DNA from: Terriglobus saanensis SP1PR4
Lineage (GTDB): Bacteria; Acidobacteriota; Terriglobia; Terriglobales; Acidobacteriaceae
DNA length: 64,000 bases
Reading direction: 5' to 3'
NCBI RefSeq assembly: GCF_000179915.2
Contig: NC_014963.1
Location: 2,542,001 to 2,606,000, forward strand
The position numbers were made by a program, and so were the translations under genes. Positions 25,538 through 49,742 of this stretch are shown piece by piece. Below the pieces are notes generated by a model. The model made no database searches and was not told where the DNA came from. It saw only the letters and a list, made by a program, of their open reading frames with translations. Position 1 is the first letter of the stretch, and every line of letters begins with the position of its first letter.

Positions 25538-25584
25538 AAAGTTAAGGATAATCCAAACGTTTGCGGGAAGGACGACAGAAGCCA

Positions 25585-25618
25585 AAAGGCCCCGGCGAAA
25601 GTAATCGCCGGGGCCCTT
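25585..25618 (-). terminator. rho-independent terminator after the Tat aminotransferase gene
   Basis: Eleven-base stem GGCCCCGGCGA (25588-25598) with TCGCCGGGGCC (25605-25615), six-base loop; on the minus strand it is followed by TTTT. It ends transcription from the aminotransferase gene before the M29 peptidase gene. Confidence 0.85.
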
Positions 25619-33238: not shown

Positions 33239-33365
33239 GCACTTCTAGCGGCTTTCTATGAGAGTCGATACACGGCAGCTGTCCCATATGGAGCAGCGGT
33301 GTTCTGAATGGTTCACTCGATTGGGAGTGTCTGAAGAAAATTGCGCCGATTTCTGTGCGTTGCAC

Positions 33366-33382
33366 TTGGCGTTCAAATTGCT
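33366..33382 (+). promoter_or_regulatory. sigma-54 (-24/-12) promoter
   Basis: TTGGCGTTCAAATTGCT: TTGGC (GG at 33368-33369), ten bases, then TTGC (GC at 33380-33381), matching the invariant GG-N10-GC and most of the sigma-54 consensus. It would start a transcript near 33393, ahead of the histidine kinase gene whose partner regulator is itself a sigma-54 activator. This supports autoregulation. Confidence 0.6.
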
Positions 33383-33480
33383 TCCTCCCCTACAGGATGT
33401 CTTTCAGCCCCATCGTCGATTCACCGCCTCCCTTTCGTGTTGGAGAGACTGCTCCTTGGCCTCCGTGGGATGATGAAGAC

Positions 33481-34644: not shown

Positions 34645-36047
34645 AGCAAAAGCACATCCTCGTCGTAGATGACGACAGCAGCCTGCGGCGTGTGATGAAG
34701 ATGCAGCTGGAAGAGGCAGGCTACGAAGTCTCACTTGCCTCCGATGGTGAAGAAGCCTGGATCAAGCTGCAGGAGACGGAGCCTTACCTCGTCATTACGG
34801 ACCTCCGCATGCCGACCACAGGGCTTGAGCTTCTACGCTGTATTACGAAGGAAGGCCTGCAGACCACAGTGATTGTGATCACAGCGTTCGGGACTGTAGA
34901 GACAGCCGTGGAAGCCATGAAGCTGGGTGCATACGACTACGTTACGAAGCCTGTGGACTTCGATGCCCTTCTGGTGGTCGTACATCGGGCCATGGAGAGG
35001 CAGAACCTGCTGGAAGAAGTGCGCAACCTGCGTTCCGCGCTCGATGCGCGTTATGGCTTCGAAGGCATCGTTGGTCAATCCAAGAGCTTTCTCCGCGTCC
35101 TCGATCAGGCGGCCCGCGTCTCGCAGCGAGACACTACGGTGCTGATTGAAGGAGAGACGGGGACGGGCAAAGAGTTGGTCGCACGCGCCATCCATCACAA
35201 CAGTCAGCGACGAAATCGTCCTTTCATCGCGATCAACTGCGGTGCCATTCCACATGAACTCGTGGAGTCGGAACTCTTCGGCTATACACGCGGCGCTTTC
35301 ACAGGAGCGGTGGCCCACAAACAGGGCCGCTTCGAAGCGGCAGATGGGGGCACCGTTTTCCTTGATGAAGTCGGCGAGCTGCCGCTTGAGGCACAGGTAA
35401 AACTACTGCGTGTACTTCAAGGCGGTGAAGTTCCTAAAATTGGTGCGAATACGCCGATAAAGGTCGACGTACGCGTGATCACGGCAACCCATCGCAACCT
35501 TGCAGCGATGGTGGAGGACGGCACGTTTCGCGAGGATCTTTATTACCGCCTGGCCGTGGTGCCGCTGCGGATACCGCCGCTTCGCGAACGCAGGGAGGAC
35601 ATTCCCGGCCTCATTGAAGCATTGTTCCTGCGAGCGAAGAAGCTGCATCATCTGGAGCAGGTAACGCTTTCATCGGGCGTCCGCCGCCGCATGACGGCCT
35701 ATAGCTGGCCCGGCAATGTGCGGCAGATGGAAAACGTCATTGAGCGCTTGCTCGTCCTCTCCGCATCCGATCTCATCACCGAAGAAGATCTGCCGGAAGA
35801 GTTGACGAGTGCTTCTGCAAACAACGTGAGCACGGCAGATTTTTGGCGCGATCTGCCGGAGCAAGGCATCAGTCTTGAAGCAGTGGAACGCAACCTGATC
35901 TGCCGAGCGCTGGAGCGCTGCGGGGGAAACCAGACCCATGCCGCGCGTTTCCTCGACATAAGCCGTCGCACGCTCATCTATCGCATGGAGAAGCACGGCC
36001 TCGCTTCCGCAGAAGCGACGACGGCAGACAATCCTTCCCAGGGATAA
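34641..36047 (+). CDS. sigma-54-dependent response regulator, NtrC family
   Basis: A 468-residue activator: receiver domain (HILVVDDDSSLRR, phosphoacceptor Asp in LVITDLRMP, conserved Lys in YVTKPVD), AAA+ domain with Walker A (GETGTGKE), the GAFTGA loop that contacts sigma-54 (GYTRGAFTGAVAHKQGRFE), Walker B (GGTVFLDEVGEL), and a Fis-type helix-turn-helix at the end (CGGNQTHAARFLDISRRTLIYRM). It overlaps the kinase gene by four bases (ATGA). A -24/-12 promoter lies ahead of the kinase gene; I did not find an equally good one facing the efflux operon, so control of that operon is inferred from position. Confidence 0.93.
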   Translation: MKQKHILVVDDDSSLRRVMKMQLEEAGYEVSLASDGEEAWIKLQETEPYLVITDLRMPTTGLELLRCITKEGLQTTVIVITAFGTVETAVEAMKLGAYDYVTKPVDFDALLVVVHRAMERQNLLEEVRNLRSALDARYGFEGIVGQSKSFLRVLDQAARVSQRDTTVLIEGETGTGKELVARAIHHNSQRRNRPFIAINCGAIPHELVESELFGYTRGAFTGAVAHKQGRFEAADGGTVFLDEVGELPLEAQVKLLRVLQGGEVPKIGANTPIKVDVRVITATHRNLAAMVEDGTFREDLYYRLAVVPLRIPPLRERREDIPGLIEALFLRAKKLHHLEQVTLSSGVRRRMTAYSWPGNVRQMENVIERLLVLSASDLITEEDLPEELTSASANNVSTADFWRDLPEQGISLEAVERNLICRALERCGGNQTHAARFLDISRRTLIYRMEKHGLASAEATTADNPSQG

Positions 36048-36101
36048 GGCTGGTACGGTCTAAACTAAAGGCGTTCTGGCGGAAAAATCGAGGAGAGCAG
36101 C

Positions 36102-36689
36102 ATGAAAGTTTTGAGCGAAATCTGGCTGGTACGGCATGGAGAGACAGAATGGAGCCTCTCCGGAGCACACACCAGCAGAACCGACATCCCTCTTACCGAG
36201 CAAGGGAAAGAGAGAGCCGTGACACTCAAGCCGTACCTGGCACGACAGGATTTTTCGCTCGTCCTGACGAGCCCACGGCAGCGCGCTCAGGAGACCTGCA
36301 AGCTCGCGGGGATGGGCGATCAGGCAGAGGTCGATGCCAATCTCGCCGAGTGGGATTACGGGATCTACGAAGGACGCACGACGCCTGAGATTCGCAAAGA
36401 ACATCCCGGATGGTCTGTTTGGAACGACCCGATTCCTGAAGGCGAGAGCCTTCCTCAGGTGGCTGCGCGCGCCGAAAAAGTGATTTCAAAAGCGAAGGCG
36501 GCGGGCGGAAAGGTGTTGATCTTCTCGCACGCGCACTTCCTGCGTATCCTCACGGCGTGCTGGATGGAATTGCCCCCGTCGAACGGAAAATCGCTGGCGC
36601 TAACGACTGGTTCCCTCAGCATTCTTGGCTACGAACGAGAAACGCCCGTTCTTCGCCTCTGGAATCGGTCCTTCGAGACTTCACTCTAA
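36102..36689 (+). CDS. histidine phosphatase-family protein
   Basis: A 195-residue phosphoglycerate-mutase-like phosphatase. The catalytic LVRHGETEWSLSG motif carries the nucleophilic His, the conserved Arg is in LTSPRQRAQET, Glu in LAEWDYGIYEG and the second His in IFSHAHFLR. GAGGAGAG lies ahead of the ATG. Members dephosphorylate sugar phosphates or small metabolites; some are alpha-ribazole phosphatases, but no cobalamin genes are near. It stands alone between the two-component genes and the membrane module. Substrate unknown. Confidence 0.88.
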   Translation: MKVLSEIWLVRHGETEWSLSGAHTSRTDIPLTEQGKERAVTLKPYLARQDFSLVLTSPRQRAQETCKLAGMGDQAEVDANLAEWDYGIYEGRTTPEIRKEHPGWSVWNDPIPEGESLPQVAARAEKVISKAKAAGGKVLIFSHAHFLRILTACWMELPPSNGKSLALTTGSLSILGYERETPVLRLWNRSFETSL

Positions 36690-36758
36690 ATTTGTTGAAT
36701 TTGGAAAGGAGATCTGGTAACGAAACTATTTTTTTGATATTTCTTATCCGACCGAGGA

Positions 36759-36804
36759 ATAAACCTGATGATTCAGGTTTATGTCAGCACCATGAGGTGT
36801 TGGT
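36759..36804. promoter_or_regulatory. two tandem inverted repeats upstream of the membrane module
   Basis: First repeat: perfect 10-base arms ATAAACCTGA / TCAGGTTTAT with a TGAT loop (36759-36782). Second: CAGCACC / GGTGTTG with an ATGA loop (36785-36802, one G-T pair). Neither is followed by a T run, so they look more like operators or leader structure than a terminator. They lie 57-100 bases ahead of the membrane-protein start. Confidence 0.45.
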
Positions 36805-36858
36805 CACGCTAGGATAGATGCCCTCCTCAAAATTTCTTTCGAGCGAAGGAAGGGTTCA

Positions 36859-38073
36859 TTGGCTACTCATATCGGTGTGCAGGCGATAAGTTCTTTAGAC
36901 ACTTACCCAACAAGTACAGAGTCCAGCCAACAAATTGCGTCCACCACACGGATGCCCTGGTACCTCTGGTGCATTGCCTTGGCAGCCACCTGCAATACGG
37001 TAGGCATCCCCTGGGACATCTCCTGGCACCGCACCATTGGTCGGGATAGTTTCTGGAACCCTGCGCATGTAACGATCTATCTTTCCGCCGTTTTTGCGAT
37101 CTTAGCGTGCTCCTATCTCATTCTTCCGACGACCTTTCGCAGGAACTCTCCATTCCGTCCCTTCTCTGTTCGCGTACTTGGCCTCCGCGGCCCACTCGGT
37201 GCTTTTGTCGCGGCCTGGGGCGGCATTGCTATGCTGACCTCTGCTCCCTTCGATGACTGGTGGCACAATGCCTACGGTCTCGATGTAAGACTCGTCAGCC
37301 CGCCGCACACGCTCCTGTTCTTTGGTCTGCGAGGGATCAGCATCGGTTCGATCCTTCTGGTTGCGACCTACGTGAATCGCGCCGCGTCGCATGGAGATGA
37401 AGCTGCCTACCGTGCGGGGCAGCGGATGCTGCTCTATCTCGGCACTCTTCTCGTGATCGATATCTCGATCTTCCTTATCGATTTCGATTCGTTTATCAAG
37501 TGGCACTCGCGGAGTCCTTACACGACGATCGCTCTTACGATCTTTCCCGTACTCGCGATGATGGCGGGAAGTTTACGGCATCGTTGGACGGCAACGATTC
37601 TGACCGGCGGGTATATGCTCTTCAACATCGCCGAGATTCTCTTCCTTCCACTTTTTCCAGCCCAGCCGAGGCTGGGCCCGGTCTACAATCCCGTGACCCA
37701 TATGATTCCTATGGAGTTTCCGATCCTGCTGATCGTCGTGGGAGTAGCGATTGACCTTGTGCGGCAACGCTTTGCAGGATGGCCCTCGCTCACCGACACG
37801 TTCATCGCCAGCACGCTTTCGATTGCATCTCTGGCGGCAGTCAGTTGGCCTTTTGCGAACTTCCTCATGAGTCCCGCCGCACGCAACCGTTTCTTCGGAA
37901 CGATGTATCAGTCTTACTTTGCTCGGCCTGAACGCATTCTCCACCCGCGTTTTGATCTGCCCGAGCACGGCCTGCAGTTTTTCGTGAGTCTCTTGATTGC
38001 GGTTTTGTTCGGCACGGCCACTTTATGGATAGGGGCCCGCCTCGGTCGCTGGGTCCAAGGGCTTCAAAGATGA
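36859..38073 (+). CDS. polytopic membrane protein of unknown function
   Basis: A 404-residue protein with about ten predicted membrane helices. Conserved-looking polar and aromatic motifs sit at helix ends: IPWDISWHRTIGRDSFWNPAHVTIYLSA near the N-terminus, APFDDWWHNAYGLDVRLVSPPHTLLFFG in the middle and a final YFARPERILHPRFDLPEHG. The concentration of His, Trp and Asp suggests metal or haem handling or a redox role rather than simple transport, but this is inference. The start is TTG 36859, backed by GAAGGAAGGG just upstream. Its stop overlaps the ATG of the next gene (ATGA), so both are made together. I do not recognise a named family. Confidence 0.8.
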   Translation: MATHIGVQAISSLDTYPTSTESSQQIASTTRMPWYLWCIALAATCNTVGIPWDISWHRTIGRDSFWNPAHVTIYLSAVFAILACSYLILPTTFRRNSPFRPFSVRVLGLRGPLGAFVAAWGGIAMLTSAPFDDWWHNAYGLDVRLVSPPHTLLFFGLRGISIGSILLVATYVNRAASHGDEAAYRAGQRMLLYLGTLLVIDISIFLIDFDSFIKWHSRSPYTTIALTIFPVLAMMAGSLRHRWTATILTGGYMLFNIAEILFLPLFPAQPRLGPVYNPVTHMIPMEFPILLIVVGVAIDLVRQRFAGWPSLTDTFIASTLSIASLAAVSWPFANFLMSPAARNRFFGTMYQSYFARPERILHPRFDLPEHGLQFFVSLLIAVLFGTATLWIGARLGRWVQGLQR

Positions 38074-39563
38074 GCACGCGCAACCTTCCCACTTGCCTTC
38101 TCTTACTTCTCCTCACACTCTGCACTCTTCCCGCGTACGCCCACGTCGGCAGCAAAGATATCTTTGAAGAAGTCTCGAAAGGCCCCTACAAACTCTACGT
38201 CACGATTCGTACGCCTACAGTGATTCCAGGGGTGGCCACCGTGGAGATACGATCCAGTGGCACTCTTCCAGACAGGATCGAGGCTACGGCGACGCCCATG
38301 ACTGGTCCCGCCGCAGAACACCCTCCTGCGCCAGATATTCTGCAGTCGTCAAAGGAGGATCCCCATTTTTACACGGGCACTCTCTGGATCATGGCGTCCG
38401 GCTCATGGGAGGTCCGATTTTCGATCCACGGCGCATCCGGTAGTCAAACGGTGGCGATCCCGGTTCCAGCTTCCGCGCTCTCTACTCTGGCGATGAAACG
38501 CGGCGTCGCCGTCTCGCTTGTTCTCCTGGGAACCTTTCTCGTCCTGGGCATGGCAGGCATCTTCGGCGCCGCTGTCCGCGAAAGCAGCCTGGTGCCGGAT
38601 GCGACACCCAGTCCTGCCGGACGGCGGAAGGCGCTTCTGGTCACTGTCGTCACTTTCGCGGTGATCTGCGCGCTCTTATGGAAGGCCAACAAGTGGTGGA
38701 ATGTCGAAGCCGCTCTGGCTTCGATGAAGATCTACCGTCCTCTCTCGATGACGCCCGAGCTGCGGGGCGATTCGCTAAGCCTCATCCTCGGCAACCCCGG
38801 CGCAGAGCAGAAGGAACAAACGCAGCAGCGCTCGAACCATGACTTCATCCCTGACCATGGCAAAATGATGCATCTGTATGTCATCCGTCAGCCCGACTTG
38901 GACGTTGCTTTTCATCTTCATCCCACACTCCACGGCTCTGAGTTCGATCTCGATCTGCCGCAGATGCCGCCCGGTCACTACTCCTTGTATGGCGATGTGG
39001 TGCATGCCAATGGCTTTCCGGAAACTCTGGTAAGTTCGATCGACATCCCCACAACGCAACACGGCGTTGCGCTTGCTGCAGACGATGCTGGAGGATCCCC
39101 TGCCCCCTTGAGCGCAGGCATGCTTGGGCCACGATATCCCCTGCCCGACGGTTACACCATGGTGTGGTCCCAGCCCGCATCCCTCACGGCGAACACCGGG
39201 TACTCTCTGCACTTCCGCCTGCTCGATCCGTCGGGCGCAGACGTCAAGGATATGCAGCCCTATCTTGGTATGGCGGGACACGCTGCTTTCGTCAAGACGG
39301 ACGGCACCGTCTTTGCGCACGTCCATCCCGAGGGCTCAGCCGCCATGGCCGCCATGATGCTTGCCAATAACGGTGGCAGCAACTCGGAGATGCCCGAGGG
39401 TCAAAGCATGTCGGAAATGCCGGGCATGTCTACAGGGCCTGCAGTGACCAATGCCGTAGAGTTTCCCTACGGCTTCCCCAGTGCCGGTCGATACCGCATC
39501 TTTGTGCAGATGAAGCACGGCAACACTGTGGAGACAGGCGCCTTCGACGCGATGGTCCATTAG
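38070..39563 (+). CDS. exported membrane protein with His/Met-rich periplasmic domain
   Basis: A 497-residue protein: signal peptide (LLLLLLTLCTLPAYAH, with His at the predicted mature end), a beta-sandwich resembling FixH/YtkA domains (PYKLYVTIRTPTVIPGVATVEI), two membrane helices (about residues 140-160 and 180-197), then a large external region with HGKMMHLYVIRQPDLDVAFHLHPTLHG, a second such domain (MAGHAAFVKTDGTVFAHVHPEG) and a Met-rich stretch (MPEGQSMSEMPGMSTG). Mature N-terminal His and HxH/Met-rich motifs are typical of periplasmic copper proteins, so copper handling is a reasonable inference. Co-translated with the preceding membrane protein. No enzymatic motif is seen. Confidence 0.8.
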   Translation: MSTRNLPTCLLLLLLTLCTLPAYAHVGSKDIFEEVSKGPYKLYVTIRTPTVIPGVATVEIRSSGTLPDRIEATATPMTGPAAEHPPAPDILQSSKEDPHFYTGTLWIMASGSWEVRFSIHGASGSQTVAIPVPASALSTLAMKRGVAVSLVLLGTFLVLGMAGIFGAAVRESSLVPDATPSPAGRRKALLVTVVTFAVICALLWKANKWWNVEAALASMKIYRPLSMTPELRGDSLSLILGNPGAEQKEQTQQRSNHDFIPDHGKMMHLYVIRQPDLDVAFHLHPTLHGSEFDLDLPQMPPGHYSLYGDVVHANGFPETLVSSIDIPTTQHGVALAADDAGGSPAPLSAGMLGPRYPLPDGYTMVWSQPASLTANTGYSLHFRLLDPSGADVKDMQPYLGMAGHAAFVKTDGTVFAHVHPEGSAAMAAMMLANNGGSNSEMPEGQSMSEMPGMSTGPAVTNAVEFPYGFPSAGRYRIFVQMKHGNTVETGAFDAMVH

Positions 39564-39614
39564 GATTCGCTGCCTCATTTGAGACATGCCGCCGAGTAAG
39601 ATCATAGAAACAAG

Positions 39615-40223
39615 ATGATGAACGCTCTGCGCAAACCCATAGAAGTCTCTGCGAAAAGTAAGGTCACCCCTCCGCACGACCCGGGCGGTAAATCAAAACC
39701 ACGATGGCCGGCGGATTCGAACATCAGTGCGCACTTCTCTCCCTGCAAGCGCTATCGCTATACGCTCACAGAGATTTGGGATTCGCAGCTTTCACCCATT
39801 ATGTGGCTGCTGATGAATCCCTCCGTGGCCAGTGTCGAACACGCAGATCCAACGCTCATTCGGACCGGGCGGTACGCTCGCCTTTGGGGATACGGCGGCC
39901 AGTTGGTCGGGAATGTCCACGCCTACCGCACGACCGACAAGCACAAGCTTCTTGATGTGGATGACCCGGAAGGCCCGGAGAATGTTAATGCCCTTGTTCA
40001 CATGGCAAAGCAAGCGGGAAGGGTGATCCTTGCCTATGGGCAGCCGCCGAAGGTGCTCCGTCCCAGATCGGCCGAAGTAGTTCAACTGCTGCGAGAGACA
40101 GGCGCTACGCTTCACCATCTGCGTCTCTCGAAAGATGGCTCGCCGTCTCATCCACTTTATCTCCCTGCAACGCTGGGTCCCACTCCCCCTCTACCAAAGA
40201 CAAGTGTTCTTGCGGCCGGTTGA
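39615..40223 (+). CDS. DUF1643-family protein
   Basis: A protein of about 202 residues carrying the DUF1643 core: RYRYTLTEIWD, the WLLMNPSVASVEHADPTL signature, and RLWGYGGQLVGNVHAYRTTD. DUF1643 proteins are cytosolic, widespread and of unknown function; some lie near restriction or DNA-modification genes, but nothing of that kind is here. The N-terminal 40 residues are low-complexity and the true start may be downstream. It follows the exported protein gene by about 50 bases. Confidence 0.82.
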   Translation: MMNALRKPIEVSAKSKVTPPHDPGGKSKPRWPADSNISAHFSPCKRYRYTLTEIWDSQLSPIMWLLMNPSVASVEHADPTLIRTGRYARLWGYGGQLVGNVHAYRTTDKHKLLDVDDPEGPENVNALVHMAKQAGRVILAYGQPPKVLRPRSAEVVQLLRETGATLHHLRLSKDGSPSHPLYLPATLGPTPPLPKTSVLAAG

Positions 40224-40269
40224 GAGGCTCATGATTTGAGCCTCTCAACGCCTGCTTCAGTTCAGTAGA

Positions 40270-41325
40270 TTACGGGCGCGCCTCATAGACCAGATTGAAG
40301 GGTGTTTCTGTGGCGCGGCGAAAGCGTGTAAACCCGCCCTGCATGACTGCTTCGCGAATGCGCTTCTCACCTGCCTGCGCTCCGAGGCACATTGCGCCAT
40401 CCTGCGAACGCGAAGCTGGCGTGCAGATGAACGAAGACGCCGAGTAGAAGATGCGTCCGACGGGATTGAGATTTTCTTCGAGCCGATCGTTCGCGAACGG
40501 CTCAACCACCATCCAGGTCCCATCTGGCCCCAGGCTTTTCAGAACATGGCTAGACGCACCGATCGGATTGCCCATGTCATGCAGGCAATCAAAAAATGTG
40601 ACCAAGTCATAATTCTTGCCGGGATAGGCCGTGGAACTCGCTACCTCAAAGTGCACGCGATCGGCAACACCCGCGCGGGCTGCAGCGTCGTTCGCGTAGC
40701 GGATCGACGGTTCGTGATAGTCGAAGCCAGCGAACGTCGCATTGGGATAGGCCTGCGCCATGATGATGGTGGAAGCTCCGTGTCCACAGCCAACATCGGC
40801 GACCTGGGCGCCAGCTTTGAGCTTGTGCTCCACTCCTTCAAGAGACGGAATCCAGCTTTTGACCAGATTAGCCGCGTAACCTGGGCGGAAGAAGCGCTCG
40901 GTGCCACGGAACAACGCCGCATCGTGCTGATGCCAGCCAAACCCCTCTCCGGTCTGAAAGACCGCGATCATCTTTGGGATGGCGCTAAAGTGCGCAGTCG
41001 CAAATTCAAATGCACCTGGAATAAACGCTGGTCCGTCTTCTACGGTAAGAGCGAACGCCTGTTCTTCAGTGAGGCTGAAGTTGTCCGTTGCGGGATCGTA
41101 CTGTACATATCCACTCGCAGCTTGTGCGGAGAGCCATTCGCGCACATACCGCGCATCTGTTCCCGTCTTCTTCGCTAATCCATCGGCTGAAAGTGGTCCA
41201 TCGGTCAACGCCTTATACAGACCGAGTTTATCGCCGACCACCACGGTTGCGGCGTGCATCACAGCACCGAAATCATGGACGAAGTTGCCCATGAACGCTT
41301 CTAATTTGACTTGGTCGATTGCCAT
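40270..41325 (-). CDS. class I SAM-dependent methyltransferase with winged-helix N-terminus
   Basis: A 351-residue protein: an N-terminal dimerisation/winged-helix domain (GDKLGLYKALTDGPLSADGLAKKTGTDARYVREWLSAQAASGYV), then a Rossmann methyltransferase with motif I VADVGCGHGASTIIMA, an acidic loop GFDYHEPSI and motif LVTFFDCLHDM. The layout resembles O-methyltransferases and the Rv2258c type of mycobacterial enzyme. AGGAG precedes ATG 41325; the longer frame to 41415 has no support. The gene is monocistronic. Substrate is not deducible; a role in secondary metabolism is possible but no biosynthetic neighbours are present. Confidence 0.86.
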   Translation of the reverse strand: MAIDQVKLEAFMGNFVHDFGAVMHAATVVVGDKLGLYKALTDGPLSADGLAKKTGTDARYVREWLSAQAASGYVQYDPATDNFSLTEEQAFALTVEDGPAFIPGAFEFATAHFSAIPKMIAVFQTGEGFGWHQHDAALFRGTERFFRPGYAANLVKSWIPSLEGVEHKLKAGAQVADVGCGHGASTIIMAQAYPNATFAGFDYHEPSIRYANDAAARAGVADRVHFEVASSTAYPGKNYDLVTFFDCLHDMGNPIGASSHVLKSLGPDGTWMVVEPFANDRLEENLNPVGRIFYSASSFICTPASRSQDGAMCLGAQAGEKRIREAVMQGGFTRFRRATETPFNLVYEARP

Positions 41326-41641
41326 GAAATCTCCTTGGCTGGGGAGTTTCTTCGATTGCAGATCGCACAAGAATTTTCCAAAGGAAGAGGGAGAGTAAAC
41401 AAAACCTCTCGACACTTCCTATCGGTCTACCTCAAAGTGATTCCCAGCTCATAGAAAACAACACCGAAGGCGGAAGATTATTCGCAAAGCACCGGAAGTG
41501 GCAAGATTAATGTGCCATTTAAACCCGTCTGGCGATCCATTGCCTGCTGCCATTCCACGGTTGTCCTTGCAACCTCGTTCCCACGATCATGCTGTGAGAA
41601 CGAGGTTGTCTAGAGTTAGCCACCCCAGAATTCAGCAGACT
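41326..41641. other. intergenic region between methyltransferase and htpG
   Basis: About 316 bases with no credible gene. It must hold the methyltransferase promoter (minus strand) and contains one hairpin, listed separately, near the htpG end. Confidence 0.6.
41570..41608 (-). terminator. hairpin downstream of htpG
   Basis: Perfect 11-base arms CAACCTCGTTC (41570-41580) and GAACGAGGTTG (41598-41608) with a 17-base loop. It lies 34-72 bases beyond the htpG stop. There is no clear T run, so it may be a weak terminator or an mRNA-stabilising structure. Confidence 0.5.
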
Positions 41642-43513
41642 TTAGATCGACAGGCTCAAAATGCGATTGAGACGCTGCACGAAGATGGCGGGGTCTTGCA
41701 GCGGCACGCCTTCCATAAGGAGCGCCTGGTCAAAGAGCATCCATGCGGCATCTTCGGTGACGGCGCCATCGGAGTGCGCAAGCAGCTTCTTCACGATCTC
41801 GTGATCGGGGTTGATCTCGAGCGTAGGTTTGGTGGCGGGGAACTCCTTCTGTCCCATCGCACGCATCATCTGCTGCATCTGCATGGAGGGCTCCTCTTCG
41901 TCGGAGACGATGCAGGAAGGGCTATCTGCAAGCCGCACAGAGACCCGAACATCCTTGACACGGTCTCCCAGGGTGGTTTTCAGTTTGTCGAGTAAAGGCT
42001 TCAGTGCTTCGACATTCGTTGTCTCTGCCTCGGCATCGTCCTTCAAATCTTCACTCGTCGAAGCCTTGTTGACCGCCTTAATATCGAGGTCGCCGTACTT
42101 GTCGACCCCGGAGAAGACGATCTCATCGATCTCATCATCGAGAATCAGGACCTCGAAATCCTTCTTCCTGTAGATCTCCAGAAGAGGCGATTTGCTCAAC
42201 AGAGATTCAGCGCCGCCCGTGATGTAGTAGATGGCCTTCTGGCCCTCCTTCATGCGTGACTTCACTTCGGCGAGACTCGTAAGACCATCTGCCTTGGTGG
42301 ACTTAAAGCGCACCAGGTCTAGGAGCGTTTCGCGATTGGCGTAGTCGCCATACAGACCTTCTTTGAGGGGACGGTTGTACTCCTTGATAAAGGCCAGATA
42401 CTTCTCAGGATCGTTTGCTGCGATGCTCTTCAGTTCGGAAAGAATCTTTTTGACGCTTGCAGTGCGAATACTCGTAAGGACACGATTTTGTTGCAGAATC
42501 TCCCGGCTGACGTTGAGCGGAAGGTCTTCGCTGTCGATAATGCCACGCACGAAGCGCAGGTATTGCGGCAGCAGCTCTTTGGCGTCGTCCATGATGAAGA
42601 CACGCTTGACGTACAGCTTGACGCCTACCTTGTACTCCGCCTGATAGAGGTCCAGAGGGGCCTTTGAAGGAATGTAAAACAGCGTGGTGTAGTCGAGGGT
42701 CCCTTCCGCCCTGGTGTGAAACCAGAAGAGCGGATCCTGCGAATCACCGGAGATGGATTTGTACAGTTCCTTGTAATCCTCTTCCGTGAGTTCATTCTTG
42801 GGGCGACGCCAGAGAGCGCTGGCCACGTTGACCTGCTCGGTCGTGCGCGTCTTTTCCGACTTCTTCTCTGGTTCGTTCCATGAACTCTTGTCGTAAGTGA
42901 GGAAGATTGGGAAGGCAATGTGGTTGGAGTACTTCTTCACCACCTCCTGCAAGCGCCAGCTGTTCGCGTACTGTTTGCCCTCTTCATTGAAGTGAAGAAG
43001 GATCGTGGTTCCGGCTACGGCACGCTCCGCAGGCTCAATCTCAAAGCCAGTCTTGCCATCGCTTACCCAGCGCCACGCCTGCTCTTCGCCTGCCTTGCGG
43101 GAGACGACCTCGATCTTATCGGCAACCATGAAGGCGCTATAGAAGCCGACGCCAAACTGGCCGATAAGATTCGAATCCTTCTTCGCATCTCCGGAGAGCT
43201 GCGCAAGGAAATTCTTCGTCCCGGAACGGGCGATGGTACCCAGATGAGAGACCAGGTCCTCTTCGTTCATGCCGATGCCTGTGTCGGAGATCGTAAGGGT
43301 GCCGTTCTCTTCATCGAGTTCCAGGTCAATCCGCGGGTTGAAAAGAAGCGCTTTATAGACGTCATCTGTCAGCGTGAGATGGCGCAGCTTATCGAGCGCA
43401 TCGGAAGAGTTCGAGATCAATTCGCGCAGGAAGATCTCAGGGTGCGAATAGAGAGAGTGGATGATCAGTTGGAGCAGTTGACTGACTTCGGTCTGGAATT
43501 CACGTTTCGACAT
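41642..43513 (-). CDS. htpG: Hsp90-family chaperone HtpG
   Basis: A 623-residue ATP-dependent chaperone. N-terminal ATP-binding motifs are intact: FLRELISNSSDALDKLRHL (Glu and Asn of the Bergerat fold), ISDTGIGM, LGTIARSGTKNFL and IGQFGVGFYSAFMVADKI. The middle domain has the catalytic-loop Arg region (LPLNVSREILQQNRVL), and the C-terminal dimerisation domain is complete. The start ATG 43513 is preceded by a very short gap to the divergent hrpB gene, so promoters of the two must overlap. A hairpin follows the stop. Confidence 0.96.
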   Translation of the reverse strand: MSKREFQTEVSQLLQLIIHSLYSHPEIFLRELISNSSDALDKLRHLTLTDDVYKALLFNPRIDLELDEENGTLTISDTGIGMNEEDLVSHLGTIARSGTKNFLAQLSGDAKKDSNLIGQFGVGFYSAFMVADKIEVVSRKAGEEQAWRWVSDGKTGFEIEPAERAVAGTTILLHFNEEGKQYANSWRLQEVVKKYSNHIAFPIFLTYDKSSWNEPEKKSEKTRTTEQVNVASALWRRPKNELTEEDYKELYKSISGDSQDPLFWFHTRAEGTLDYTTLFYIPSKAPLDLYQAEYKVGVKLYVKRVFIMDDAKELLPQYLRFVRGIIDSEDLPLNVSREILQQNRVLTSIRTASVKKILSELKSIAANDPEKYLAFIKEYNRPLKEGLYGDYANRETLLDLVRFKSTKADGLTSLAEVKSRMKEGQKAIYYITGGAESLLSKSPLLEIYRKKDFEVLILDDEIDEIVFSGVDKYGDLDIKAVNKASTSEDLKDDAEAETTNVEALKPLLDKLKTTLGDRVKDVRVSVRLADSPSCIVSDEEEPSMQMQQMMRAMGQKEFPATKPTLEINPDHEIVKKLLAHSDGAVTEDAAWMLFDQALLMEGVPLQDPAIFVQRLNRILSLSI

Positions 43514-43581
43514 AACCCATTATAAAAACAGAATGGGGCGCCGCGTTGACTGCGACGAAGTGCCGTGTTCCGATTGTCCTA

Positions 43582-45942
43582 GTGAGTCGAAAGCCCATTC
43601 TTCCGGTGGATGCGATTCTGCCGGAGATTTCTGCCTCCTTGCAGCGGACGCCCAACCTTGTCCTCGAAGCTCCCCCGGGAGCCGGAAAGACCACCCGCGT
43701 TCCACCGGCCCTCCTCGATCTCGTCTCCGGCGAAGTCCTCGTGCTCGAACCCAGACGGATCGCCGCTCGTCTGGCGGCACGAAGAGTTGCATGGGAACTA
43801 GGTGAAGAAGTTGGCGGCTTAGTCGGCTACCAGGTGCGTTTTGAAGAAAAGATCGGGCCGCGCACACGTCTGCGGTTTATGACGGAAGGCATTCTGACGC
43901 GGCGGCTCCTGAGCGATCCCACGCTGAAGGGGGTGGATGCGGTCGTTCTCGACGAATTTCACGAACGCCACCTGGATAGCGATCTGGCGCTGGCGCTTTT
44001 GAAGCATCTCCAGCGTGCACGACCGGAAATTCGCATCGTCGTAATGTCAGCTACGCTCGATGCGGCGCCGATTGCTCGATACCTGGGAGACTGCCCTGTT
44101 CTTCGGTCCGAAGGAAGGCTCTTTGCACTGTCAATCAGAAATATGCCGTACTCGTCCGATTCCCTTTCGATTCAGGTAAGACGCGCGCTCGAATTGCTGA
44201 ACAAAGAGCACCACACCGGCAACATTCTCGCCTTCCTGCCTGGATCCGCCGAGATCCGGCGGACCATGCGCGAATGCGAAGGCGTTGTGCGCCAGACCGG
44301 TTTACTCGTCCTTCCGCTGCATGGAGACCTGTCGCCTGCAGAGCAGGATCGCGCGGTGTTGCCTACGACTGAAAGAAAGCTGATCGTAGCCACGAACGTT
44401 GCGGAAAGCTCCGTCACTGTTGAAGGTGTGACGGCCGTCATCGACAGCGGTCTGGCTCGCTTCGCGATGTACTCCCCTTGGACCGGCATGCCTACGCTGC
44501 AGATCGGGCGCGTCAGCAAAGCCTCCGCAACACAAAGAGCCGGACGAGCCGGACGCACCGGTCCCGGTCAGGTCCTCCGGCTTTATCCCGAAGAAGACTA
44601 TTTTCTGCGACCCGAACACGACGCCCCCGAGATTGCGCGCGCCGATCTTTCGCAGCTCTTGCTCAACCTCCGCGCCATGAAGATCGCCCATATCGGCGAC
44701 CTCGATTGGCTGGATGCGCCACCTGCGGATGCGGTGCAGAGTGCTGAACTCCTACTCGATCGAATCGGTGCGACAGGCGGTGTGGAGCAACGCATGGTGC
44801 GATATCCCCTGCCTCCTCGCCTGGCGCGCATCCTCGTGGAAGCTTTGAACCGCGGCGTTGGAGAAGATGGATGCCGTGCCGCGGCGTTGCTTGGCCTGGG
44901 AGAACGCAGCACCAAGAACGATCTGCTGGAAACAATGGACCTGCCACAGGAGCATCGCGCCCGGCAGCATACGGAACAGCTCCTCAGGATGGCGCGCCCC
45001 CCGAAACAAATTGGCGAAGATGACGAGGCGCTTCTGCTCAGCGTTCTGTCTGGCTTTCCGGATCGCGTCGCCCGTCGGCGGACGGGCAATCAGATTATGC
45101 TTTCCACGGGGGTCTCCGCCGAGGTGGCGGGCGAGCGTCCGCACTCTGAGTTCATGGTCGCGCTCGACGCGGAGAATCGCAAAGAGAACCCTCTGCCACT
45201 CGTCCGAATGACGGCGCGGATCGAGCCGGAGTGGCTACTTGACCTCTTCCCCGATCGCGTCGAAGAGAGGTCAAGCGTGGTCTGGAATCGAACAGGAGAG
45301 CGCGTCGAAAGAGTCAGCGCCCTGCTTTACGACAAGCTTGTGATTCAGGAGTCCCGAGGCGCTGCCTCCGAGATCGAAGCTGCCAACTTGCTCGCAGAAA
45401 AGGCGCTGGAGGTTGGGATCGATCGTTTCGTAGAGAAAGAGATTCTGGAGTCTTTCCTCTCGCGGCTGGCCTTCGCAGGAATCGCATCACCGGATATTCC
45501 GCAGGCGCTGCGTGAGCTCTGCCTGGGTCTTCAGAGTTTTGGCGAACTTAGAGAAGCGGCAAAAAATCTCATGCCCCTTCTTCAGCAGAAGTTAGACGGC
45601 AGACTTCTCGACGAGATCGCTCCTCTGAGCATTCGTCTCAAGACAGGAAAACCGACGAAGGTGCATTATGAACAGGGAAAATCGCCCTGGATCTCGTCGC
45701 GTCTCCAGGATTTTTTCGGCATGCGGGACACCCCGCGGATCGGGCCGGACCAAACACCACTTGTCGTCCATCTGCTGGCGCCAAACAATCGAGCGGTGCA
45801 AACAACCGCGGATCTTGCGGGTTTTTGGGAACGCCTTTATCCCAAAGTACGACGGGAATTAATGCAACGCTATCCAAAGCATGCATGGCCGGAGAGTCCC
45901 GGGCCGAAGAAAGATAAAATTCGGACGAACGTAGAATTATAA
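43582..45942 (+). CDS. hrpB: ATP-dependent DEAH-box helicase HrpB
   Basis: About 786 residues. Helicase motifs in order: APPGAGKTTRVP (I), EPRRIAARLAA (Ia), LDEFHERHLDSD (II, DEFH as in HrpB), MSATLDAAP (III), VATNVAESSVTVEGV and QRAGRAGRTGPGQVLRLY (V-VI). The C-terminal HrpB domain with LLPFLPG-type and PTKVHYEQGKSPWISSRLQDFFG motifs is present. The frame opens with TTG at 43546, but that lies only 32 bases from the divergent htpG start; GTG 43582 leaves VSRKPILPVDAILPE, matching the usual N-terminus. HrpB is an RNA helicase of unclear cellular role, possibly in RNA processing. Confidence 0.93.
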   Translation: MSRKPILPVDAILPEISASLQRTPNLVLEAPPGAGKTTRVPPALLDLVSGEVLVLEPRRIAARLAARRVAWELGEEVGGLVGYQVRFEEKIGPRTRLRFMTEGILTRRLLSDPTLKGVDAVVLDEFHERHLDSDLALALLKHLQRARPEIRIVVMSATLDAAPIARYLGDCPVLRSEGRLFALSIRNMPYSSDSLSIQVRRALELLNKEHHTGNILAFLPGSAEIRRTMRECEGVVRQTGLLVLPLHGDLSPAEQDRAVLPTTERKLIVATNVAESSVTVEGVTAVIDSGLARFAMYSPWTGMPTLQIGRVSKASATQRAGRAGRTGPGQVLRLYPEEDYFLRPEHDAPEIARADLSQLLLNLRAMKIAHIGDLDWLDAPPADAVQSAELLLDRIGATGGVEQRMVRYPLPPRLARILVEALNRGVGEDGCRAAALLGLGERSTKNDLLETMDLPQEHRARQHTEQLLRMARPPKQIGEDDEALLLSVLSGFPDRVARRRTGNQIMLSTGVSAEVAGERPHSEFMVALDAENRKENPLPLVRMTARIEPEWLLDLFPDRVEERSSVVWNRTGERVERVSALLYDKLVIQESRGAASEIEAANLLAEKALEVGIDRFVEKEILESFLSRLAFAGIASPDIPQALRELCLGLQSFGELREAAKNLMPLLQQKLDGRLLDEIAPLSIRLKTGKPTKVHYEQGKSPWISSRLQDFFGMRDTPRIGPDQTPLVVHLLAPNNRAVQTTADLAGFWERLYPKVRRELMQRYPKHAWPESPGPKKDKIRTNVEL

Positions 45943-46014
45943 GCAGTTTGATCGGGAATAGACGTACGCCCCCAGGTGTTATGTATGCGGTTGCATAACC
46001 GAGGAGCCGTTTCC

Positions 46015-46338
46015 ATGAACACCGACACCAAACCCAAAATCCATCTGGTTCAGGCAAGGCCATCTGAGCCATTACGCGGCAGAAAGTCTCTCGAGCCAAC
46101 AGGACGGAACAAAGCACTCGAGTTGGTACTGAGCGCAGCCAGCACCGGGACACTGCTCTTCCTGGCTTTAACCTTTCTGACGCTTCTGTTTTCACTGCTT
46201 CCTCATAGCGTGTTCAGCGCGACGATCCAGCAGGAGCAGCGCTTCGCGACGAGAGTCATCGAACGTAACCGCACCTCCAATGCTCACTTCGGCTATGTGG
46301 AAGTTCCAATCAGGACCGAGAGGTCGAGAAATAATTAG
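46015..46338 (+). CDS. small membrane protein, hypothetical
   Basis: A 107-residue protein: a basic, polar N-terminal half (about 45 residues), one long hydrophobic helix (TGTLLFLALTFLTLLFSLLPHSVFSA, roughly 50-75), then a short charged tail. GAGGAG lies ahead of ATG 46015, which makes translation credible. The topology suggests a single-pass inner-membrane protein with a cytoplasmic N-terminus. No known family is recognised, and it is not clearly in an operon with hrpB, which ends 72 bases upstream. Confidence 0.65.
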   Translation: MNTDTKPKIHLVQARPSEPLRGRKSLEPTGRNKALELVLSAASTGTLLFLALTFLTLLFSLLPHSVFSATIQQEQRFATRVIERNRTSNAHFGYVEVPIRTERSRNN

Positions 46339-46492
46339 GGCGATCAGGCGTGTGAAGTGCAGCTCAATCGGAGATGATCCGCTAAATGCCATAGCCGCTC
46401 CTGCGCGGTTGGATATTCCCTCGGCGCATGGAATGCTAATAAGATCCGACGCCTCAGGCACTTTTATTTAGAGATTCAGAACAGCGATAGAC

Positions 46493-46924
46493 CTACTTAT
46501 TGACCCCGTCATACCACCGCCGTCCACGGACAAATAAAACCAACTCCCCGGATCGTCGACGAACCAACGGAGCGCCACACCCGTTCTCCGCAGAGATCCC
46601 AATATCCATCATTGTCCGCAAGCTATACGCCAAGGGAGGCGTCACCGGCTTGCGGCAATCGATGGACTCCAGTGGAACAACAAAGATGCGGACCGCCGGA
46701 GACAACGGAGGCGGAAGGACCGCGACTCCGTTGTCATCCGTACGCAGCACGATCGGACGTCCGTCCATCTCGTCGTACCAGAGGTTTACATCTTCGTGCA
46801 CCACCGCACTTCCATTGCGCCCATCCACAACACGAAGCACGAGAGGCTTCGGTGCGTCCTGCGCCAATGCGATGCACGCCGTCAAAGAAAAAGAGACGAC
46901 TGCCATGCAAATCGTGCGAAGCAT
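46493..46924 (-). CDS. small exported protein with beta-sandwich domain
   Basis: A 143-residue protein with a signal peptide (MAVVSFSLTACIALA; the Cys is not in a good lipobox). The mature part (LVLRVVDGRNGSAVVHEDVNLWYDEMDGRPI, then LRTDDNGVAVLPPP) looks like a carboxypeptidase-regulatory or transthyretin-like sandwich. Two cysteines (DCRK and NGCG) could form a disulfide. Its ATG overlaps the ATP-grasp gene stop by one base (TAATG), so it is translated with that enzyme and may be a substrate or partner. No family name is certain. Confidence 0.72.
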   Translation of the reverse strand: MLRTICMAVVSFSLTACIALAQDAPKPLVLRVVDGRNGSAVVHEDVNLWYDEMDGRPIVLRTDDNGVAVLPPPLSPAVRIFVVPLESIDCRKPVTPPLAYSLRTMMDIGISAENGCGAPLVRRRSGELVLFVRGRRWYDGVNK

Positions 46925-48048
46925 TACGACCCCGACCGCGGAGGTGTTGGCTTCGCAACTCGTGTTGGAGCTTTTTTACCGGGCACCCTTGCGGCACTCT
47001 TCTTCCCTGTTGTCTTTGCAGCCACCGTCTTTGTAGCGGCCTTCACGGCTGCCTTGGCAACCGCCTTCTTGGCTGGCGGCTTTGGAACCGGTGTAACGGT
47101 TACAGACAGAGCACTCTGCCCACTCAGAAAAGCCGACCATCGCATCTCTGGCAGCGCACGCCCGGGAGTTTGGGCTTTTTCTATCGCAAGCTTCGCCACG
47201 GCATTCACGATCCAGTCAAAGCTTTCGCGGCCGATCGAATGCAGATCAGCATCCGGAGCGGGGTTCATGAAGTCGATCGCATACGGCACACCGTCCTGCA
47301 CAGCAAACTCCACCGTGTTCAGGTCATACCCTAACGCCTGGCAGAGCGTGAGCGCGTCACGTTCAATGCGCACAAGGAGTTCAGGATCGTATGTGTGCAG
47401 CTCCATGACGTATCGTTCCGCCTCTGGACGCTTCGGATCGTAAGGCATGATCCTGACTTCCCTCTGCCCCACGACATAACAGCGGAAGTACTCCTTGAAG
47501 TTCACCTCTGCCTGCAATGTCATGCAGAGATCGCGCGATCGGTCATAAGCCGCAAAGAACTCTTCGCGGTTATGAACATGCGAAACATCGCGCCAGCCGC
47601 CACCGTTGTGCGGTTTTAGAAACGCTGGGAATCCGACGTACTCAAAGCTCTTCTCCCAGTCGTAGGGATAAGCCACATTGCGGAAGCTGCGGTCATTCGT
47701 ATCCGGCGGCATCACTTTGCTGGGCAGGATCACCGTGCGGGGGACGGCAACACCCAGCTTCGTCGCCAAAGCGTAGTTGAAGAACTTGTCGTCCGCGCTC
47801 CACCAGAAAGGATTATTGATAATCTGCGTCCCGCTAAGGGCCGCATTCTTGAGATAGGAACGGTAGAACGGAATGTCATGCGAGATGCGATCGACGATTA
47901 CGTCATACCCACTCGGCTCTGCCATCTTCACGACATCGATCGTTACAAACTCTGCGGAGATCCCGTCGTATCCGAAGGAGTTGATCTTCTCCACGAGAGC
48001 TCCGGGAAAGGTGTTCTCCATACCAAACATCACGCCAATCTTCTTCAT
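46924..48048 (-). CDS. ATP-grasp ligase with Lys/Ala-rich C-terminal tail
   Basis: A 374-residue protein. The ATP-grasp fold is clear from about residue 70 to 300: NPFWWSADDKFFNYALATKLG, FPAFLKPHNGGGWRDVSHV (ATP-binding Lys and loop), YFRCYVVGQREVRIMPYD and VEFAVQDGVPYAIDFMNPAPDADLHS (Glu, Asp and Asn that bind Mg). The nearest characterised relatives are RimK-type and other peptide or amide ligases. The last 55 residues are a low-complexity tail (KPPAKKAVAKAAVKAATKT and similar to the end), like histone H1 tails. ATG 48048 has GGGAGA ahead. It follows an esterase gene by 56 bases and overlaps a small exported-protein gene. The two substrates to be joined are unknown. Confidence 0.85.
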   Translation of the reverse strand: MKKIGVMFGMENTFPGALVEKINSFGYDGISAEFVTIDVVKMAEPSGYDVIVDRISHDIPFYRSYLKNAALSGTQIINNPFWWSADDKFFNYALATKLGVAVPRTVILPSKVMPPDTNDRSFRNVAYPYDWEKSFEYVGFPAFLKPHNGGGWRDVSHVHNREEFFAAYDRSRDLCMTLQAEVNFKEYFRCYVVGQREVRIMPYDPKRPEAERYVMELHTYDPELLVRIERDALTLCQALGYDLNTVEFAVQDGVPYAIDFMNPAPDADLHSIGRESFDWIVNAVAKLAIEKAQTPGRALPEMRWSAFLSGQSALSVTVTPVPKPPAKKAVAKAAVKAATKTVAAKTTGKKSAARVPGKKAPTRVAKPTPPRSGS

Positions 48049-48104
48049 TGATTCTCCCAATTGCGAGGGACCGCACGAAGCACCACACTTGGCGCGGTCA
48101 GTTT

Positions 48105-48818
48105 CTAAAGATAGGCCGCGAGCATCTTCTGCCACCACGGCCAGTCATGGCCAGCACCGTCCTGCCACACATCCAGTTGCACGGGAATCCCTTTTCGTCT
48201 CAGAAGGGCCGCGAATTTTTCATTCTCGTCCCAACACATATCCTGTACACCCGTCGCCAGAATGTAGCTGTTGTGCCTGTACTTATCGAGATACCACGGG
48301 TCGCTCATGTTCGGCAGAAAGTGCGTCGGCAGATTCAGATAACAATCTTCGTCATAGTACCCACGCAAAAACCGGCCAATGTCGAACGCTCCCCCCATGC
48401 TCAACATCGCCGTAAAGGTCTCCGGATGCCTCAACGCAATGTTCGCCGCGTGATACCCGCCAAAGCTGCATCCCGCTGCAGCAAGATGAGGACTGAGGTT
48501 CTTCGACCGGATGACCGGCAGCACTTCGTCGAGAATGTACCGCTCAAATTGAAGTTGGCGTGCGATACGCCAGCGGCCAGGAACGTCTTCCGGCGCATAC
48601 CAGCTCTCGCTGTCTACAGAGTCCACGCAAAAGAGCTGCGCCTGTCCGCGCTTGATCTGAGCGGAGACCGCATGCACCATCCCCCGGTCTTCAAACTCAT
48701 AAAAACGCCCGCAGGAGGTAGGAAAGACCACGACCGGAACTCCGGCGTGCCCGAAGACCAGCATCTCCATCTCCCGGTCCAGCGCACCGGATTTCCACTT
48801 ATGATATTCCCGGTTCAT
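48105..48818 (-). CDS. alpha/beta-hydrolase esterase, first of two
   Basis: A 237-residue cytosolic esterase of the esterase-D/Fes type. The nucleophile elbow is AAAGCSFGGYHAANIAL (Ser in GCSFGG), the oxyanion region is VVVFPTSCGRFYEFEDRGM, and the catalytic His is in GAGHDWPWWQ. No signal peptide is present. It is read in the same direction as the ATP-grasp gene and is divergent from a second esterase gene whose start lies 66 bases away. Pairs of esterase and ATP-grasp genes are described in Iyer and Aravind's survey of amidoligases, where the esterase is proposed to process the ligated product. That role is inferred here. Confidence 0.87.
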   Translation of the reverse strand: MNREYHKWKSGALDREMEMLVFGHAGVPVVVFPTSCGRFYEFEDRGMVHAVSAQIKRGQAQLFCVDSVDSESWYAPEDVPGRWRIARQLQFERYILDEVLPVIRSKNLSPHLAAAGCSFGGYHAANIALRHPETFTAMLSMGGAFDIGRFLRGYYDEDCYLNLPTHFLPNMSDPWYLDKYRHNSYILATGVQDMCWDENEKFAALLRRKGIPVQLDVWQDGAGHDWPWWQKMLAAYL

Positions 48819-48884
48819 CGTGGCTTCACCTCCGGAGCTGACCTTTGCGGTCTGGTACGCTTGGATGCAATCCTACCGCAGAGG

Positions 48885-49742
48885 ATGAACGCGAATCCGA
48901 TTTTGACCCAGCCACGCGAACTCGATCTCACGCAAAGAAACGACCTGGACCATAATTCGCGTTATCGCATCCATCATGACTGGTCTTCGCCCTACCTGGA
49001 ACATGCGCGCGACGTAACCGTTTATCTCCCAGAGATCTACGATGCCGAACCTGAGCGCAGCTTCCCCGTTCTCTACATGCACGATGGGCAAAATCTCTTC
49101 GACGGCCGCCTTTCCTACGTACCGGGATCTACCTGGCGCGCGGGAGCGACCCTTGATACCTGTATTGCCGAAGGTCTCGTGGAGCCGCTGATTCTAGTGG
49201 GCATCGCGAACGCCGGAAGCGCCCGCATGTCCGAGTACACCCCCGTCCCGGATCCGAAACTCGGCGGCGGTGGTGGTCCGCTTTATGCCAAAGCCATCGT
49301 CGAAGACCTGATTCCGTGGATGGGCAGTGAGTACCGCCTCGCAAACGAGCGGGAAGAAACCGGTATTGCGGGATCGTCCCTGGGAGGCCTGATCTCACTC
49401 TGGATGGGATTCGAATATCCCGAGATCTTCGGCAAGGTCGGCGCTCTGTCACCCTCTCTCTGGTGGAACGGTCGCAGCCTGCTCTCCGACGCAGGCAAGC
49501 TGGCCCTGACCTCCAGGCCAAGGATATGGCTCGACATGGGTCTTGAGGAGGGCGCGTTGCATCTTCGAAATACCGATCTGCTGGCGCGGACGCTGACCCA
49601 AAGGGGCTGGGTTTCGGGTAGAGACCTTCACTATCAGCGGGTCTGGCAGGGAACCCATAGCGAAGCCTCCTGGGCGAGCCGGTTTGCAGAGGTCCTTAGT
49701 TTCCTTCATCCCGCCCCCAAACCCTCTAGAAATAGCCGCTAA
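48885..49742 (+). CDS. alpha/beta-hydrolase esterase, second of two
   Basis: A 285-residue esterase of the Fes/IroE-like putative-esterase family. HDWSSPYLEHARDVTVYLP and VLYMHDGQNLFDG are family blocks; the nucleophile elbow is GIAGSSLGGLISLWMGFEYP, Asp is in RIWLDMGLEEG and His in GTHSEASWASRF. No signal peptide is visible. The frame is open well upstream to 48048, but that part is antisense to the first esterase and is not coding; ATG 48885 has GAGG immediately before it, an unusually short gap, so the start is a little uncertain. It is divergent from the esterase/ATP-grasp operon and probably belongs to the same pathway. Confidence 0.86.
   Translation: MNANPILTQPRELDLTQRNDLDHNSRYRIHHDWSSPYLEHARDVTVYLPEIYDAEPERSFPVLYMHDGQNLFDGRLSYVPGSTWRAGATLDTCIAEGLVEPLILVGIANAGSARMSEYTPVPDPKLGGGGGPLYAKAIVEDLIPWMGSEYRLANEREETGIAGSSLGGLISLWMGFEYPEIFGKVGALSPSLWWNGRSLLSDAGKLALTSRPRIWLDMGLEEGALHLRNTDLLARTLTQRGWVSGRDLHYQRVWQGTHSEASWASRFAEVLSFLHPAPKPSRNSR

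Follow-up and report, generated by a model that had tools for sequence, protein, structure and literature searches.

The closest described counterparts of the locus analyzed here, an ATP-grasp ligase gene (LIG) and its neighbors in a 64,000-nucleotide stretch of Terriglobus saanensis SP1PR4 (NC_014963.1, positions 2,542,001 to 2,606,000; the window, meaning that whole stretch), pair amide-forming ligases with one another or with hydrolases. Hydrolase partners are reportedly included in the 2009 amidoligase survey of Iyer and co-workers. In the RimB-RimK and RloABC operons of Pseudomonas, a RimK-like ATP-grasp ligase is encoded with a peptidase (PMC12239564, PMC11957791); in the accessible parts of these papers the peptidases are retropepsin-type proteases and YbdK is not described, and the exported proteins there are proteases, whereas the putative exported protein next to LIG (SMALL) matches no family. 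For pseudouridimycin, the accessible part of PMC6586884 describes two carboxylate-amine ligases, PumK and PumM (SapD/SapF), that are encoded together and act in turn, attaching two groups successively; that system makes a nucleoside antibiotic in Streptomyces, and the likeness is drawn from its description. Papers citing the 2009 survey state, in their accessible parts, that its neighborhoods link ATP-grasp and COOH-NH2 ligases. No paper on the cluster presented below was among the literature matches listed; the 2009 survey was not covered, and absence from print is not claimed.

The window genes are best explained, with a probability of roughly 0.6, as the surviving front half of an amide-ligase cluster of Acidobacteriota. 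In relatives the cluster core consists of a small esterase gene (EST1), LIG, a gene for a YbdK-type carboxylate-amine ligase (YbdK) and one for an M29-type peptidase homologue (M29), with a third gene, C5 or a 450-amino acid relative of it, in some. The cluster is widespread in soil bacteria of this phylum, and its center is a set of two to three ligases, not a ligase with an exported partner.

In the window, LIG (46924..48048, minus strand) encodes 374 amino acids, with an ATP-grasp core of RimK/LysX-type fold (residues ~1–305) and a Lys/Ala-rich tail (residues 311–374). Upstream on the same strand, EST1 (48105..48818) encodes a 237-amino acid α/β-hydrolase esterase that heads the ligase unit. 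EST2 (48885..49742, plus strand), encoding an α/β-hydrolase esterase of 285 amino acids, diverges from EST1, and its ATG at 48885 lies 66 bases from the EST1 start codon. The start of SMALL (46493..46924, minus strand; 143 amino acids) shares one base with the LIG stop (TAATG). These positions, the overlap and the gap between the esterase genes were as given in a preliminary description of this DNA made from its letters and open reading frames, and its calls of two esterases and an ATP-grasp ligase also held. Both esterases passed the Pfam Esterase cut-off (EST1, 38.6 bits against 22; EST2, 110.3 bits), and both contain GxSxG and a conserved Ser/Asp/His set that is probably the catalytic triad: S118/D193/H224 in EST1 (51 loci, its own included) and S165/D217/H258 in EST2 (46 loci, its own included), each residue at least 97% conserved where covered. 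LIG and SMALL passed no Pfam or NCBIfam cut-off.

Genome contigs were scanned with LIG; out of 551 relatives the best 80, almost all of which carry an Acidobacteria label, were fetched as loci with up to 6 kb of flank and searched by tblastn; T. roseus is present twice among them and several loci end early. Within these 80 loci, YbdK was found in 65, M29 in 50, EST1 in 48, EST2 in 42, C5 in 31, rpsP in 25, SMALL in 6 and an aminotransferase gene in 5. The usual order was EST2 (divergent), EST1, LIG, YbdK, M29 and, in some loci, C5; where rpsP-rimM-trmD occurs, it lies on the far side of EST2. The neighborhood suggested by the preliminary description thus recurs in Acidobacteriaceae for EST2, EST1 and LIG and not for SMALL, and the usual downstream partners YbdK and M29 had been overlooked. 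In a sample of 150 genomes drawn from the family, LIG was present in 75 and YbdK in 67, with both in 66 (a count that includes the window's own YbdK remnant), LIG only in 9, YbdK only in 1 and neither in 74 (Fisher p ~5e-31). Of 65 LIG-YbdK pairs that could be located, 60 shared a contig and strand, with gaps of −112 to 1625 bases, and the other 5 were on different contigs. EST1 (limit E 1e-40) was found in 71 of the 150 genomes, 69 times together with LIG; 6 genomes had LIG without EST1 and 2 had EST1 without LIG. Among the 69, 49 had EST1 upstream of LIG in the same orientation and no more than 6 kb away; in 15 it was on a different contig (partly from fragmentation) and in 5 distant on the same contig. 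Because of these co-occurrence counts, the EST1-LIG arrangement is more than chance, and the association is old and real. Across the phylum, LIG was detected at E 1e-15 in 88 of 297 genomes, in 10 of them only by distant relatives (E 1e-39 to 1e-49). Among 72,556 plasmid records, LIG had no tblastn match at E 1e-8. A defense-system reading was rejected, as PADLOC-DB matched none of seven proteins (the four window proteins and YbdK, M29 and C5 of relatives) at E 0.01.

Further copies and relatives of LIG were encountered in these scans. Two LIG paralogues are present in some genomes from outside the family (G196, G207, G272, G355, G399, G173), and a more distant LIG relative of 415–476 amino acids also exists, for example in G204 and G180. 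T. roseus DSM 18391 contains the entire locus twice (L006 and L007, at ~2.46 and ~2.92 Mb), ~460 kb apart and with match coordinates equal to within about one base; genome G433, whose match positions fit this strain, likewise has two LIG and two GCS2 matches. One locus with the order and identity typical of Acidobacteriaceae (L037) is on a contig labelled Verrucomicrobia bacterium Tous-C9LFEB, perhaps a mislabelled bin.

The rest of the cluster was found 19 kb from LIG, beyond a separating stretch at 27582..46492. At 27095..27564 on the minus strand is a decayed remnant of YbdK, also missed in the preliminary description, in which ~470 bp of 1104 are left as three or four collinear blocks that are 70–89% identical to three intact relatives; deletions lie between the blocks, and stops are present in all three frames of its strand. 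T. roseus YbdK matched the remnant and nothing else in the genome, and Pfam GCS2, which would mark an intact gene, had 0 matches there at E 0.001. Directly behind it are an open aminotransferase gene (25638..26900, minus strand) and then M29 (24488..25585, minus strand), in the order seen in T. roseus; in the Terriglobus relatives, the aminotransferase gene sits between YbdK and M29. The window M29 protein is 83% identical to that of T. roseus over 340 residues. The aminotransferase has 420 amino acids and an RR-type N-terminus (twin-arginine translocation-like, by eye). Over 359 residues it is 66% identical to its T. roseus counterpart, which passed NCBIfam PRK09105 (450.8 against 444) and missed PtaA (343.4 against 500). 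In T. roseus, G128 and G148, no more than ~0.5–0.65 kb separates LIG from YbdK. The last two are split elsewhere, with 21 kb between EST1 and LIG and with LIG, YbdK, the aminotransferase gene and M29 together.

Among 19 genomes of the genus, the window's included, a GCS2 gene over the cut-off was found in 12 (12 of 18 congeners) and LIG in 15. LIG without a GCS2 match was seen in the window's genome (G000), G431 (70% complete) and G432, and neither was matched in G031, G095, G430 and G435. No YbdK was seen in the sister genome G431, whose assembly breaks off on either side of the site; this is not counted as a proven loss. The sole YbdK-only genome of the 150 family genomes, G089, has YbdK in two broken pieces with stops beside a shortened M29 on a 5.8-kb contig (L128), with no LIG match in the genome.

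Selection was estimated by the Nei-Gojobori method as the ratio of nonsynonymous to synonymous substitution rates (dN/dS) between the window and G431, whose LIG is 91–92% identical; dS was 0.5–1.1, which makes the values rough. The ratio was 0.048 for whole LIG (core 0.029, tail 0.141), 0.049 for EST1, 0.121 for EST2 and 0.206 for SMALL, against yardsticks of 0.040 for TrmD and 0.051 for RimM. The window LIG was not clearly faster than T. roseus LIG, with dN of 0.194 versus 0.212 to L003 and 0.201 versus 0.196 to L005 (synonymous sites near saturation). Ratios this low suggest that this genome has maintained LIG and EST1 despite losing YbdK.

A model of LIG was made with AlphaFold from an alignment of 30 LIG proteins (mean predicted local distance difference test score, pLDDT, 78.9; low confidence beyond residue ~310). 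By VIA-align the top match was RimK (5zct; Z 22.3, root-mean-square deviation [rmsd] 2.9, 262 residues aligned), followed by LysX/ArgX at up to Z 21.5 and Ddl at up to Z 19.9; Foldseek ranks Ddl first by E-value (4.6e-14). With Z scores of 19–22 to RimK, LysX, PPIP5K2 and Ddl, LIG is predicted to have an ATP-grasp fold of the RimK/LysX type. The likeness to the RimK/LysX/ArgX group extends over LIG residues ~2–295 (for RimK, Z 21.6–22.3, rmsd 2.6–2.9, 16–18% identity). LIG differs from that group in having D-x-x-N where the aligned biotin carboxylase has E-x-N, in keeping company with YbdK, M29 and EST1, and in scoring far below the RimK-family cut-off.

Residues K145, R189, E247, D259 and N262 are invariant in all 101 LIG loci, down to 28% identity; the loci comprise 81 from the first round (the window's own included, T. 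roseus twice) and 20 fetched from genomes. When LIG and biotin carboxylase were aligned by profile, E247 and N262 matched a Glu and an Asn of that enzyme. An acid at the E-x-N position forms part of the magnesium site in ATP-grasp enzymes. In LIG, F260 occupies the place of the biotin carboxylase Glu two residues before this Asn; the acid, D259, precedes it by one residue, and all 101 loci read D-[FYL]-x-N; the fold still places LIG in the superfamily although the acid is missing from the E-x-N position of the last strand. That motif and its magnesium site are named in the accessible part of PMC4431377, which also gives a comparable yet different displacement, ExGD, for R2K.3 enzymes and two conserved RAGNYA-domain lysines as a feature of the R2K clade. 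The window LIG fell below the cut-off for this CDC123-like clade (Pfam R2K_3, 13.2 against 26.3 bits), and among the 30 aligned LIG members R2K_2 and R2K_3 were matched weakly in 7 and 5, with best E-values of 0.0069 and 0.031. The tail, Lys/Ala/Pro-rich by eye and modelled with low confidence, had been named in the preliminary description as part of an unfamiliar layout; it is not peculiar to this LIG, as a Lys-rich tail (at least 15 residues beyond position 310, at least 20% K+R) is present in 63 of 80 LIG relatives.

The partner proteins were characterized mainly from relatives. The T. roseus YbdK, the one gene scanned, scored 536.6 bits against the equivalog cut-off of 371 for NCBIfam PRK13515 and matched the solved YbdK structure 1r8g. 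The T. roseus M29 protein matched Pfam Peptidase_M29 (51.8 bits, cut-off 27) over residues 159–309 only. C5 (404 amino acids) shares 17–19% identity with a LIG neighbor of 450 amino acids in other families; genes of 450–480 amino acids lie beside or near LIG in L105, L106, L108, L110, L111 and L112, all from other acidobacterial families. Of the three 450-amino acid relatives scanned (L106, L110, L112), two were over the cut-off for circularly permuted ATP-grasp proteins and one was just under it. As judged from profiles, C5 or its relative is distantly ATP-grasp-like in some lineages.

From the families involved, LIG most likely would activate a carboxylate with ATP as an acyl phosphate and join it to an amine, as do RimK and LysX. 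Where present, YbdK would add another amide bond to that product; an ester or activated form of a substrate or product would be hydrolyzed by EST1 and in many cases by EST2 as well, and the M29 peptidase would trim or recycle by removing N-terminal residues. The order of the steps, like their chemistry, is deduced from family membership, and the product is most likely a small peptide-like amide. The preliminary description's ligation followed by hydrolysis is thus a reasonable general picture, given a peptide/amide-ligase fold with its key residues kept, once SMALL is removed from it. In the window's lineage, LIG and YbdK were separated and YbdK decayed, in either order; LIG and EST1 have stayed under strong selection and so probably still serve some use as a shortened pathway. 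A more far-reaching proposal, put forward tentatively and at less than even odds, is that LIG is the founding member of an ATP-grasp ligase family not described before, in which the acid of the metal site is displaced (D-x-x-N), that EST1-LIG-YbdK-M29-C5 makes a peptide-like metabolite or cofactor of Acidobacteriota, and that Terriglobus has repeatedly shortened or lost the pathway; if so, the shortened Terriglobus pathways would be natural intermediates for comparison. Acidobacteriota abound in soils, and little of their small-molecule chemistry is known. The recurrent grouping of hydrolases with two or three amide ligases, around a LIG family that has an unusual motif and passed no curated cut-off tested, suggests an undescribed product. 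Loss is graded inside a single genus, which offers a ready set of comparisons with and without the genes, and the cluster is present in cultured Granulicella, Edaphobacter and Terriglobus, where it can be tested directly.

Several results weigh against the front-half explanation. The structural comparison is not specific for ligases: the inositol-pyrophosphate kinase PPIP5K2 follows RimK closely (Z 20.1–20.9), the top Foldseek match is Ddl, and another ATP-grasp reaction would be compatible with the modelled fold. The displaced acid D259 might signify altered catalysis. Of the 75 family genomes with LIG, 9 (several of them incomplete) had no detected YbdK, in addition to the window's remnant-only genome, and 6 lacked EST1, so the parts do not depend strictly on one another. 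The Fisher tests ignore the kinship of the genomes. Of 12 loci taken from 10 genomes belonging to other families, 5 had YbdK (once 7 kb off on the other strand), 1 had C5, 1 a weak EST2-like match and 1 (L106) EST1, there on the opposite strand with one gene between it and LIG. The M29 homologue had no NCBIfam or PDB match, and C5 alone passed no family cut-off. Part of the divergence from G431 may predate the loss of YbdK.

The strongest alternative, although unlikely, is that LIG is a RimK-type protein-modifying ligase that adds residues to, for example, a ribosomal protein, with the peptidase and esterases reversing or regulating the modification and the Lys-rich tail serving for docking. 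RimK, including RimK bound to RpsF, provides the best VIA-align matches, rpsP is within the fetched stretch of 25 of the 80 relative loci, and antagonism of a ligase and a hydrolase has a precedent in RimK/RimB (PMC11957791, PMC12239564, in their accessible parts). Yet LIG scored 25.1 bits against the RimK-family cut-off of 143.4 (NCBIfam TIGR00768), it is EST2 and not LIG that adjoins rpsP, and rpsP, rimM and trmD were near LIG in none of the 12 other-family loci. Docking by the tail fits poorly with 9 of 80 homologues in which it is nearly absent (fewer than 10 residues beyond position 310), and a YbdK partner is unlike RimK systems as described in the accessible parts of the same two papers.

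Considerably less probable is a glutathione-like thiol, in which YbdK would join Glu and Cys, LIG would add a third residue and C5 an amine, and EST1 would act like S-formylglutathione hydrolase. In its favor, a reference title in PMC2588565 reports γ-glutamyl:cysteine ligase activity for YbdK, a joint profile of C5 and its 450-amino acid relatives matches the putative glutathionylspermidine synthase 3n6x (E 0.0018), and EST1 has a weak match (E 0.0044) to a structure of S-formylglutathione hydrolase, ranked under other esterases. The EST1 protein, however, reached 13.3 bits against the S-formylglutathione hydrolase cut-off of 281.7 (NCBIfam TIGR02821), and LIG was kept in the window's genome after the loss of YbdK. 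The thiol reading is further lowered by a match in this genome to BshC, of a bacillithiol enzyme family (260.6 bits, cut-off 27), as another thiol is likely made.

That the whole locus is decaying, with LIG and EST1 on their way out in this lineage, would fit the YbdK remnant and the 4 of 19 genus genomes without a LIG match; it is very improbable, and for the recent past largely refuted, with LIG core and EST1 as constrained as TrmD and the key residues intact.

The preliminary description had proposed SMALL as the co-translated partner of the ligase. The N-terminus of SMALL is hydrophobic by eye, a single-sequence structure model was uninformative (pLDDT 31.7), also on the beta-sandwich suggested in that description, and a Pfam scan of seven SMALL relatives gave matches at chance level only. 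SMALL matched in 10 of the 150 family genomes and adjoins LIG only in the window's own; in seven other LIG-bearing genomes the match, a weak one, was on another contig or ~415 kb away. The six SMALL loci of the 80-locus set are labelled Terriglobus or, for L028, Acidobacteriaceae, and count T. roseus twice; in G431, SMALL is behind LIG. The congeners G128 and G148, which have LIG and YbdK, had no SMALL match. In G031 and G095, where LIG and YbdK had no match in the genome, EST1 is followed by ~4.7 kb of other genes and then by SMALL and the adjoining aminotransferase gene; the 19-kb stretches of these two genomes yielded neither M29 nor EST2. For a graspetide or other ribosomally synthesized and post-translationally modified peptide, a precursor encoded with the ligase is expected; SMALL is no fixed companion, and open reading frames of fewer than 60 amino acids were not searched systematically. 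Thus, despite the one-base overlap in the window, ATGA overlaps in T. roseus and L019, and two Cys and a DGRNG motif invariant in seven aligned SMALL relatives, a dedicated partner or substrate of the ligase is the least credible reading and was set aside, since SMALL is beside LIG only in Terriglobus-like loci, is kept in LIG-free congeners and is lacking from two with LIG and YbdK, which makes the translational overlap a local arrangement.

Other features of the split regions were as follows. In G128 and G148, an unrelated open reading frame of 109 amino acids, not SMALL, lies between LIG and YbdK (L096, 9614–9943; L097, 9160–9489). The 19-kb stretch of the window showed no island signature in its G+C content (57.1%, flanks 56.4% and 57.0%) or in transfer RNA genes, of which the window has none; mobile genes were not searched for. 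By eye, this stretch contains resistance-nodulation-division (RND) efflux genes, two-component genes, htpG and hrpB, and its RND-type operon (27582–33238; CzcA-like, membrane-fusion and outer-membrane proteins) abuts the YbdK remnant.

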